From Demequina soli (lineage in GTDB: Bacteria > Actinomycetota > Actinomycetes > Actinomycetales > Demequinaceae), in the NCBI RefSeq assembly GCF_000971195.1, contig NZ_BBLZ01000002.1, positions 372,001 through 436,000 of the forward strand: a stretch of 64,000 nt of DNA. Reading direction: 5' to 3'. Position 1 is the first letter of the stretch, and every line of letters begins with the position of its first letter. Of this stretch, positions 2,764 through 59,660 are shown piece after piece. The notes beneath the pieces were generated by a model. The model was not told where the DNA came from. It did no database searches and worked only from the letters and a program-made list of their open reading frames with translations. Made by a program: the position numbers and the translations under genes.

Positions 2764-2981
2764 GGTGCTCCGATGGATTCGGGGGCGCGGTCGCGCCGTT
2801 CAGGCGGGCAGCCGATCGCGAATCATCCTCAGAGCGGCTCGTCGCTGTCTTCAGCGGTACCGCGTTTCACATGACGACCGGTCAGCCCCGGGTCAGGTCA
2901 CAGTGTACCGGGAGGCGCTTCCGCGGCGGTAGGGCCCGAGGTCTCGGGCGCGCCGCGGCGTCCGGAGCCGCGCGGGCGCCG

Positions 2982-3632
2982 TCAGGGCAGGTCGTCGCCC
3001 AGCGGCGAGGGGCGCGGGTCCAGCACCGCGGTGACGATCGCGTCGATCGCGAACCGGCTCGCCGCGGCCAGCTCGACGTTGCCGCGGTCCAGCAGCCACT
3101 GCACCTGGAGGCCGTCCATCACGGCGAGCACGGACGCGGACGCGTTGGCGACGGTGGCGGGCGCGTCGATGCCGCGCTCGGCGCACATCGCCCGCAGCGC
3201 GTCGGCGACCTCGCCGCGCAGCACCGTGTAGCGGTCCTCGAAGTAGGCGCGGCCAGGGTTGCCCTCGGTCACGGACTCCGCGGACAGCACGGCGTACGCC
3301 TGGACGATGCCGGGGCGGGCCTCGTTGGAGAACGCGGTCCGCACAAGGTGGCGGAACAGCTCCGCGCCGCCCGGGATGTGCTGCTCGTCCAGGCCCTCGA
3401 CGTCGGACTCGTCGCGGTAGCGCAGCACCTCGACGAGGAGGCGGTCCTTCGACCCGAAGTGGTGGAGGATCCCCGCGTGCGTCATGTCGACCTGGTCGGC
3501 GATCTCGGCGAGCGGGCCGTTGTTGAAGCCCTTCTGCCCGAAGATCTCGAGCGCCGCCTGCAGGATCTCGCGGCGTCGCGCGAGCGTCTCGGGACGCGGC
3601 CGGGACGGTCGTCGTGTCGCTGTCATCGTCAC
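2982..3632 (-). CDS. TetR/AcrR-family regulator
   Basis: A 216-residue regulator. An N-terminal helix-turn-helix is visible (REILQAALEIFGQKGFNNGP, then IADQVDMTHAGILHHFGSKD, the usual TetR recognition helix ending in a FxSKD motif), followed by a helical ligand-binding half. It is divergent from the GH3 glycosidase gene across a 248-bp gap that contains unusually A+T-rich DNA and a short inverted repeat. That layout suggests, but does not prove, that it controls the glycosidase-importer genes or itself. Start may be GTG at 3632 or ATG at 3626. The ligand is unknown. Confidence 0.9.
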   Translation of the reverse strand: MTMTATRRPSRPRPETLARRREILQAALEIFGQKGFNNGPLAEIADQVDMTHAGILHHFGSKDRLLVEVLRYRDESDVEGLDEQHIPGGAELFRHLVRTAFSNEARPGIVQAYAVLSAESVTEGNPGRAYFEDRYTVLRGEVADALRAMCAERGIDAPATVANASASVLAVMDGLQVQWLLDRGNVELAAASRFAIDAIVTAVLDPRPSPLGDDLP

Positions 3633-46238: not shown

Positions 46239-46493
46239 CTACTTCGCGGCGCGACGCGCGCGGGCGGCGCGGCGCTTGAGGGAGCGGCGCTCGTCCTCGG
46301 ACAGACCGCCCCAGACACCGGAGTCCTGGTTGTGCTCCATCGCCCACTGCAGGCACGTGTCACGCACCTCGCAACGCTGGCACACGGCCTTCGCCTTCTC
46401 GATCTGCGAGAGGGCCGGGCCGGTGTTGCCGACGGGGAAGAAGAGCTCGGGGTCATCGACTTCGAGGCATGCTGCGCTGCTGCGCCAATCCAT
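46239..46493 (-). CDS. whiB1: WhiB1-type iron-sulfur transcription factor
   Basis: An 84-residue WhiB protein. Four Cys (AACLE, then AVCQRCEVRDTC) hold a 4Fe-4S cluster; the turn GVWGG and the basic tail RRSLKRRAARARRA bind DNA. It is close to mycobacterial WhiB1 from MDWR through DPELFFPVGNTGPAL, and has the same kinase neighbour. WhiB1 is essential and nitric-oxide-sensitive in mycobacteria. The ATG at 46493 has AAGGAG 5 nt upstream; the ATG eight codons earlier does not. A CRP-like site lies upstream. Confidence 0.95.
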   Translation of the reverse strand: MDWRSSAACLEVDDPELFFPVGNTGPALSQIEKAKAVCQRCEVRDTCLQWAMEHNQDSGVWGGLSEDERRSLKRRAARARRAAK

Positions 46494-46626
46494 GGGGTCT
46501 CCTTGGGGGGATAGCATGACGCGACGGGGCTTCCCCAGGGGGTGGTTCGGGGATTTCGTCGCGCCGTCGCGTTTCTACTTCGTTAAGATTCGCATAAGTA
46601 ACGATCATGTTTCAAGAGGTGTTTCC

Positions 46627-57844: not shown

Positions 57845-59068
57845 TCATCGGCACTGCGAGAGCAGGTCTTCAGTCGTGGTGGTGGCGGAGGTGGGGGCAT
57901 CGCTGGACGTCGCCGAGGACGAGGGAGTCGAGGAGGGCGTGGAGGTGCTCTTCTTCTTGCCGTCATCCCAGGCGGAGCTCGCGTCGCCCGCGGTGGTCAC
58001 GGAGATCGGTCGGTCGTTGCGGATATCGTCCCACATCTGCTCGGCCTCGGGCAGGATGTCGACGTTGAGGCGATCCTCCGTGTACTCCCACGGGACGGTC
58101 TGGAAGTCGATGTCCGCCGGGTCGAGACCGCGCAGGCTGTAGGCCAGCCCGACGAGGTACGAGGTATCGGCCATCTCGGGGTCCATGGTGAGCGACTCGG
58201 CGGCCGCGCGCAGGAACGCGGTGAGCTGGTCGGCGTCGGTGAGCAGGTTCTTCGACAGGACCGTCGCGGCGACCTGCGACAGCAGCTGCTGCTGCCGCGT
58301 GATGCGCTGGAGGTCGGAGCCGGACACGCCGCCCTCCTCCGCGGTCCGCAGCCGCGCGTACGCCAGCGCGGTCTCGCCGTCGAGCACCTGGGGGCCCGCG
58401 TCGAGCTCGAGGTGCGCCTTCTTGGAGACGATGCGCTCGGGGATGCACATCGGCACGCCGCCGAGCGCGTCGACCATCGTGACGAAGCCCTCGAAGTCGG
58501 CGACGACGTAGTGGTCGATGCGGATCCCGGTGAGCTGCTCGACGGTCTTGATCGTGCAGGCGGCCGCCTCGGCCGCGTTGCCCTTGGCGCCGCCGTTCGC
58601 GAACGCGATGTTGAAGTCGCCGTGCGTGGCGGGGACGGTCGAGCCGTCGAGGTAGGTGCACTCGGGGATGTCGACCTGCGCGTCGCGGGGGATCGACACC
58701 GCCTGGACGCGTGCGCGGTCGGCGGAGATGTGCACGAGCATCGTCGTGTCGTTGCGCATGCCCTGGATGGTCGAGCCGCCGTCGAGGCTGCTGTTGTCGC
58801 CCGAGCGCGAGTCGGAGCCCATCACGAGGATGTCGAGGGCGGCTCCCGCGTCGGCGTCCGCGGGCGCCGACGGCCGGTCGGAGCCCACGAGGTCCGTCAC
58901 GTCCTGCGCGCGCGCCCCGAGCGTCGCGTCGAGCTGCCCGATCACGGTCCCTGCATAGGAGACGGTGAAGCCGAGGAGCGCGACGGCCGCGAGCAGCGAG
59001 AGCCGGCCGATGCGGCGGGCGCGGCTGTGATGCGCGTGGCGCGGCCGCGTGTCGGGCGTGTCGGCCAT
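57845..59068 (-). CDS. LCP (LytR-CpsA-Psr) cell-wall ligase, second paralogue
   Basis: A 407-residue paralogue of the previous LCP protein. MADTPDTRPRHAHHSRARRI is the cytosolic start, SLLAAVALLGFTVSYAGTVI the anchor, then LVMGSDSRSGDN, GMRNDTTMLVHISADRA, AVSIPRDAQV and GIRIDHYVVADFEGFVTMVD. It too ends with a Ser/Thr-rich linker and a Cys-containing tail (EDLLSQCR). The ATG at 59068 has GAGAGGAGA upstream; the 13-codon extension upstream is not supported. It is divergent from whiB2. Confidence 0.95.
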   Translation of the reverse strand: MADTPDTRPRHAHHSRARRIGRLSLLAAVALLGFTVSYAGTVIGQLDATLGARAQDVTDLVGSDRPSAPADADAGAALDILVMGSDSRSGDNSSLDGGSTIQGMRNDTTMLVHISADRARVQAVSIPRDAQVDIPECTYLDGSTVPATHGDFNIAFANGGAKGNAAEAAACTIKTVEQLTGIRIDHYVVADFEGFVTMVDALGGVPMCIPERIVSKKAHLELDAGPQVLDGETALAYARLRTAEEGGVSGSDLQRITRQQQLLSQVAATVLSKNLLTDADQLTAFLRAAAESLTMDPEMADTSYLVGLAYSLRGLDPADIDFQTVPWEYTEDRLNVDILPEAEQMWDDIRNDRPISVTTAGDASSAWDDGKKKSTSTPSSTPSSSATSSDAPTSATTTTEDLLSQCR

Positions 59069-59258
59069 GCGTCTCCTCTCGCGGTCCCTGCGGCGCATTG
59101 TAGGCATGGCGCACGGGGGGCTCCGGGGCGCCGCGACGGGGGTGCGAGGGACGATGCGGGGACACGCCCGGACGCGTGCGTGCCGACGCAGGGATGATGC
59201 GGCATGGCGTGCCGTGTGACGGCTGTGTAAATAGTTGGGACAAAGTGCACCTCTGGAC

Positions 59259-59287
59259 TTGACGCGGACTGATTACACGGCTGTAAT
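59259..59287 (+). promoter_or_regulatory. whiB2 promoter with operator over the -10 box
   Basis: TTGACG (59259-59264), 17-bp spacer, TGTAAT (59282-59287). A perfect inverted repeat ATTACA-CGGC-TGTAAT (59272-59287) covers the -10 box, so a bound factor should repress. ACGGCTGT recurs about 60 bp upstream (near 59218). The form is loosely like a BldD box, but with one extra central base. Confidence 0.7.
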
Positions 59288-59339
59288 TTCCTGTGACGGG
59301 GACGGGCAGGATCTCCGTTGTGATCGGAGGTGGGGCCCC

Positions 59340-59660
59340 GTGTGGAATATCTACGACGGATCGGTGCCCTCTGACGCAGGCAAGCCGGCATCGACCCTCG
59401 CGTCGGTGGTGGACATCTTCAGCGCGACCGACGACGACGGTCCGCTGGCATGGCAGGAGCGCGCACTGTGCGCCCAGACCGATCCCGAGGCGTTCTTCCC
59501 CGAGAAGGGTGGCTCCACGCGTGAGGCGAAGAAGGTGTGCGCGTCGTGCGACGTGCGTTCCGAGTGCCTCGACTACGCGTTGGCCAACGACGAGCGGTTC
59601 GGCATCTGGGGTGGGCTGTCGGAGCGTGAGCGCCGCAAGCTCAAGCGGCGCGCTGTCTAG
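59340..59660 (+). CDS. whiB2: WhiB2-type iron-sulfur regulator
   Basis: A 106-residue WhiB protein. RALCAQTDPEAFFPEKGGST and KKVCASCDVRSECLDYALAN supply the four Cys of the 4Fe-4S cluster; RFGIWGGLSERERRKLKRRA is the turn and basic DNA-binding tail. It matches WhiB2/WhmD, needed for septation in mycobacteria. The GTG at 59340 is chosen for GGAGG 9 nt upstream; a longer frame to 59235 runs over the promoter and is rejected. Its position between LCP and GT2-DUF5719 genes is conserved. Confidence 0.93.
   Translation: MWNIYDGSVPSDAGKPASTLASVVDIFSATDDDGPLAWQERALCAQTDPEAFFPEKGGSTREAKKVCASCDVRSECLDYALANDERFGIWGGLSERERRKLKRRAV

Follow-up and report, generated by a model that had tools for sequence, protein, structure and literature searches.

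The whiB2 gene of Demequina soli is preceded by a promoter whose -10 hexamer forms one arm of a palindrome, which raises the question of what regulator acts there. An earlier note, made from the letters of the window (the whole stretch of 64,000 nucleotides that was analysed), had described ATTACA-CGGC-TGTAAT as a perfect inverted repeat lying exactly over the -10 sequence TGTAAT. This was borne out: the palindrome proper occupies 59272-59287, with ATTACA at 59272-59277, the central CGGC at 59278-59281 and TGTAAT at 59282-59287. The range 59259-59287 of the earlier note corresponds to the whole sigma-70-type promoter (TTGACG-N17-TGTAAT) upstream of whiB2, not to the palindrome alone. The features of the promoter and the gene are listed in Table 1. 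An LCP-family gene (57845-59068, minus strand) bounds the whiB2 intergenic region on its other side. The WhiB protein of the window was assigned no family in the NCBIfam search. A second WhiB-family stretch is present in the window at 46266-46502 on the minus strand, showing 49% identity to whiB2 over residues 33-105.

Table 1. Features of the whiB2 promoter region (positions are those of the window)
Feature	Position	Strand	Basis
Upstream copy of ACGGCTGT, judged a chance repeat	59219-59226	+	At that place in 1/47 family genomes
-35 hexamer TTGACG of the whiB2 promoter	59259-59264	+	Sequence
Proposed McdR/ResR operator GATTACACGGCTGTAATT	59271-59288	.	1 mismatch to AATnACAnnnnTGTnATT; conservation
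-10 hexamer TGTAAT, also the right arm of the proposed operator	59282-59287	+	Sequence; invariant in 46/46 aligned relatives
GGAGG, likely ribosome-binding site	59326-59330	+	Seen in sequence; role inferred
whiB2, WhiB family, 106 aa, GTG start	59340-59660	+	PF02467, 98.2 bits

Upstream regions of whiB2 were gathered from 47 genomes of the Demequina family, all of which carry an ortholog of the gene. The regions of 46 genomes, with ATG or GTG at the equivalent start, could be aligned without gaps (column 0 being the first T of TTGAC); G030, whose upstream stretch is masked, was left out of the column counts and kept in the pattern counts. TnACA-N4-TGTAATT was found upstream of whiB2 in all 47 genomes, GATnACA-N4-TGTAATT in 45 and the perfect ATTACA-N4-TGTAAT in 34, and the spacer between the arms was exactly 4 nt in every one of them. 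Among the 46 aligned sequences, the left-arm positions T14, A16, C17 and A18 were invariant, as was the entire TGTAATT; G12 was kept in 45 and A13 in 44, and columns 5-10 of the promoter spacer were variable. TTGAC stood at the 17-bp spacer in 41 of the 47 genomes and one base further in 4; it was not found in G046 and is masked in G030. In the four genomes with the shifted -35, the operator and the -10 stayed locked together. Footprinting in relatives, the check that had been suggested for a regulator site on the whiB2 -10, found the repeat retained throughout the family, and the palindrome over the -10 is confirmed as real and conserved. The earlier note had also observed a ACGGCTGT repeat about 60 bp upstream. 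The two copies are indeed there, 58 bp apart (the downstream one at 59277-59284); as a conserved element the repeat did not hold up, the upstream copy being confined to this genome (1/47), and it was rejected as a regulatory element.

A strict pattern combining the -35, the left arm, the spacer and the -10 was then sought in 394 genomes of the class. It was present in 65 of them (27 of 138 genera), at one place each, and missing from the remaining 329, and its reversed control gave 0 matches in the same 394 genomes. Thirty of the 65 loci, the window included, were examined, and all 30 lie upstream of whiB2. When 80 whiB2 loci were grouped by record titles, AnnACA-N4-TGTAAT with TTGAC at 17 or 18 bp was found at 4 of 5 Demequina loci, at 30 of 39 loci outside Demequina and Streptomyces/Streptacidiphilus, and at none of the 36 Streptomyces/Streptacidiphilus whiB upstream regions.

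Mycobacterial whiB2 is reported to be repressed by McdR (Rv1830, also named ResR), a MerR-family protein that acts via AATnACAnnnnTGTnATT; altered arms or an altered spacer length abolish the repression, and altered spacer letters do not (PMC9040748). A few mismatches are reportedly tolerated by the protein (PMC10336103). The whiB2 site of the window differs from the mycobacterial sequence by one mismatch, at the first base, where 45 of 46 Demequina-family sites carry G in place of A. Across the family, variation within the left arm is greatest at the n of the McdR motif, and the T after the -10, which belongs to the McdR motif and not to the -10 hexamer, is invariant. A McdR-like MerR-family gene is present in this genome, where it adjoins ftsR (NF050798, above the cut-off) and an FHA gene. 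Such a gene was found in 46 of the 47 family genomes and in all 26 other genomes (61-78% identical), which had been chosen for diversity from the 80 whiB2 loci, and its DNA-binding segment, AGITYRQLDYWART...GSG..RLY, is near-invariant across 56 McdR-like proteins. G046 retains the operator, yet a search of its draft assembly (89% complete) turned up no McdR. The NCBIfam search with McdR returned MerR relatives below the cut-off only, and the structure search no close solved structure. McdR is present in both Streptomyces genomes that were searched, yet the Streptomyces/Streptacidiphilus loci are without the pattern, which may point to rewiring in that lineage.

An ftsR neighbourhood with a nuclease gene between two MerR genes has been described as conserved in actinobacteria (PMC6683498). 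In this genome the nuclease gene is missing. The second MerR gene of the neighbourhood is taken to be the ortholog of Rv1830. The putative McdR orthology of the Demequina gene draws on its neighbourhood and on related genomes. Taken together, we consider it quite likely that an McdR/ResR ortholog uses the whiB2 palindrome as its operator, that the bound repressor would hide the -10, and that WhiB2 would feed back on its own repressor.

Another MerR-type protein or an unrelated factor (such as FtsR, a response regulator resembling BldM, or any of the remaining MerR proteins) could use the palindrome instead, which we regard as unlikely. The genome contains six MerR-type domains, and FtsR, a MerR-type regulator of ftsZ encoded by the neighbouring gene, is likewise a conserved regulator of division. 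The reported FtsR repeat (AACCCTAAAGTAAAGGTTGAGGGTA), however, is 25 bp long and of another sequence (PMC6683498), and the reported BldM site (TCACcCgnncGgGTGA) is unlike the palindrome as well (PMC4125116). FtsR and BldM were set aside on this comparison of letters.

For McdR as a repressor, a dimer of the protein would bind ATnACA-N4-TGTnAT. Because the -10 hexamer itself forms the right arm, binding would mask the -10 from the sigma factor, and whiB2, which encodes a cell-division regulator, would be held down. If, as we infer, the transcription start lies 7 nt downstream of the -10, the operator site in the Demequina whiB2 promoter would span about -23 to -6. Such masking would agree with the repression seen in mycobacteria, although the site there is described around the transcription start, not on the -10 (PMC9040748). 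Activation by McdR or another MerR protein in the classical MerR fashion appears improbable, rather more so than the use of the site by a different factor. MerR-family proteins are classically activators and McdR has been proposed to be bifunctional, but classical MerR sites lie in -35/-10 spacers of 19-20 bp (PMC9040748), and here the spacer is 17 bp with the site over the -10 rather than inside the spacer. With a spacer of this length, the untwisting mechanism of the classical activators would not be needed.

In mycobacteria, WhiB2 is reported to activate mcdR through cGACACGc (PMC9040748). CGACACG is present upstream of mcdR in this genome, with T as the last base versus c in the mycobacterial motif. 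Thirty mcdR loci were examined from the 46 family genomes with a match; CGACACG stands upstream in 26 of them on the plus strand and in 27 on either strand, against a background of 33 in 240 equal-length blocks. The corresponding numbers for the other genomes are 14 (plus strand) or 17 (either strand) of 26 against 20 of 208, all these counts being of sequences related by descent, not of independent trials. Thus, the published McdR-WhiB2 feedback loop seems to be conserved. WhiB2 would activate mcdR via CGACACG, which would close a negative feedback loop and keep WhiB2 near a set level; binding, repression and feedback are carried over here from the mycobacterial work. By eye, GGTTGA or CAACCT repeats, resembling one half of the FtsR motif in the literature, were seen upstream of mcdR in many genomes (e.g. 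at 2948-3040 of locus L141), and FtsR may regulate mcdR. In Humibacillus and Terrabacter, a McdR-like AACGAC...TGTAGTTATC was seen, also by eye, between the likely promoter and mcdR, a possible case of autoregulation.

The candidates that the earlier note had named fared less well. That BldD binds the site with a slightly wider spacer, as at Streptomyces developmental promoters, is very improbable. The palindrome shares the outer letters TNAC...GTNA with the Streptomyces BldD box (PMC4151990), and Streptomyces whiB is reported to be BldD-repressed (PMC4125116). As had been noticed before, however, the window has one base more between the halves, TNAC(N)6GTNA, than the box TNAC(N)5GTNA (PMC4151990). 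A BldD query (its sequence verified against the PDB) that was run on the 47 family genomes had no match in this genome; partial matches of low score (20-24 bits) came up in 4 of the 47, none of which was taken for an ortholog. The exact pattern is, moreover, missing at all 36 loci of BldD's home lineage. BldD is expected to occur in all of those genomes. BldD was rejected on its spacing and on the outcome of this ortholog search. A WhiA or WhiB protein acting via GACAC is also unlikely: GACAC does not occur in the site, and no left-arm column varies more than the one needed to complete it. The third option of the earlier note, some other factor, is the likeliest: the factor is probably not BldD but McdR/ResR, to judge from the near-identity of the site with AATnACAnnnnTGTnATT.

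Palindrome counts were uninformative as a sole argument. The window holds 59 perfect 6-4-6 inverted repeats against a mean of 66.1 in 20 first-order Markov simulations; the whiB2 palindrome is the only one whose arms are at least 5/6 A/T (mean of the simulations, 0.0). ATTACANNNNTGTAAT occurs exactly once in the 3.0-Mb genome, and allowing two mismatches added two further places; this total of three is the same as that of the reversed control (3), so that the loose matches are meaningless. Common as such repeats are, a palindrome arising by chance at an A/T-rich -10 is hardly credible: the left arm is not part of any core promoter element, its four invariant columns are nevertheless kept in 46 of 46 sequences beside a variable promoter spacer, and the pattern was found again across families of the class; it is this conservation that decides the matter.

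Scanning the genome with the McdR motif at up to three mismatches gave 51 places versus 13 for the reversed control; among the 3-mismatch matches listed, a sizeable share comes from a dispersed repeat. One mismatch was found at three places only: the whiB2 site, C12 120014-120031 and C12 120107-120124. A 2-mismatch copy (C12 120060-120077) stands between the latter two, the three sites being 46 and 47 bp apart, and three further 2-mismatch matches occur elsewhere in the genome. The three C12 sites directly follow the stop codon of crgA (PF06781), between this gene and a convergent one, presumably of rhomboid type. A DnaA-box-like sequence of the TTATCCCC type directly adjoins each of them, and two TTGTCCACA boxes, both perfect, are found nearby. 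The genome also carries a dispersed intergenic REP-like element, TCACATCTGTCATTGGGAATCG, at 11 places, often as inverted pairs.

These sites recur in relatives. crgA was found in 46 family genomes, and 30 loci, all of the genus Demequina, were examined: every one has McdR-like sites after crgA, two or three each, and matches with up to two mismatches numbered 73 in 12 kb versus 0 in the other 85 kb. Among the 26 other genomes, 15 have McdR-like sites within 400 bp of crgA (17 matches in 10.4 kb versus 1 in 73 kb), ten have crgA sites with at most one mismatch, and 11, both Streptomyces among them, have none near the gene. Two genomes outside the class share the crgA neighbourhood with McdR-like sites. 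In a sample of the phylum, GATAANNACANNNNTGTNNTT matched in 29 of 396 genomes and its reversed control in at least 6. Thirty GATAANNACANNNNTGTNNTT loci were examined; the crgA profile placed crgA beside four of them, two being those of this genome, and a single-sequence search beside that of this genome only. With crgA beside so few loci, most of the phylum-sample matches are unrelated.

We advance McdR binding after crgA as a hypothesis drawn from these sequences. In its fuller form, which we hold only tentatively and rate somewhat below an even chance, McdR would also reside at a conserved DnaA-box site after crgA, where it would compete or cooperate with DnaA, and a palindrome of M. tuberculosis would be a ResR/McdR operator as well. 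Rv0011c of that species is, as we assume, crgA. The Rv0010c-Rv0011c intergenic region is reported to bind DnaA, and all but one of the convergent mutation loci there fall within a small palindrome, interpreted in that study as a pair of DnaA boxes (PMC7738170). Judged by the Demequina sequences, this palindrome might be an McdR operator with DnaA boxes around it. In M. smegmatis, five DIP-seq peaks are reported for McdR, with whiB2, MSMEG_0833 and MSMEG_5468 identified by name as targets (PMC9040748); crgA goes unmentioned in the main text of this report and in that of PMC10336103, which counts against a second site. Our literature search returned no report joining resR with crgA in tuberculosis; the first resR study might still report binding near crgA, and the idea of a second site may already be known. 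Rv0010c and Rv1830 did appear together in one paper's table of candidates. For their part, resR and the whiB2-fbiA region are reported to be enriched for within-host variants (PMC13308281).

If the whiB2 reading holds, the mycobacterial feedback loop would extend to a much wider set of actinobacteria, which suggests an old wiring of division control with the operator fused with the -10. If McdR also binds after crgA, it would tie division (WhiB2, perhaps CrgA) to the initiation of replication, and resR, the whiB2 promoter and the Rv0010c-Rv0011c region would join in one pathway. The crgA sites would make this McdR-DnaA link directly testable, at a place of convergent mutation in clinical M. 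tuberculosis for which the account in PMC7738170 leaves the reasons open.

The whiB2 site would be a further case of the known type of McdR operator, and the second site after crgA is possibly new. With the mycobacterial whiB2 operator the Demequina site shares the target gene, the half-sites and the 4-nt spacer, and the genome has in addition an McdR-like gene preceded by the WhiB2 motif (PMC9040748, PMC10336103); the site differs in its first base, G not A, and in the fusion of its right arm with the -10, as opposed to a site around the transcription start. For the second group of sites, the closest counterpart is the Rv0010c/Rv0011c region of M. tuberculosis, known here by its description (PMC7738170). 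Its palindrome is read as two DnaA boxes and its next gene is a different one, whereas in Demequina the palindromes match the McdR motif and have DnaA-box-like sequences directly beside them; both regions lie just downstream of crgA, and both combine DnaA-box-like sequences with a palindrome.
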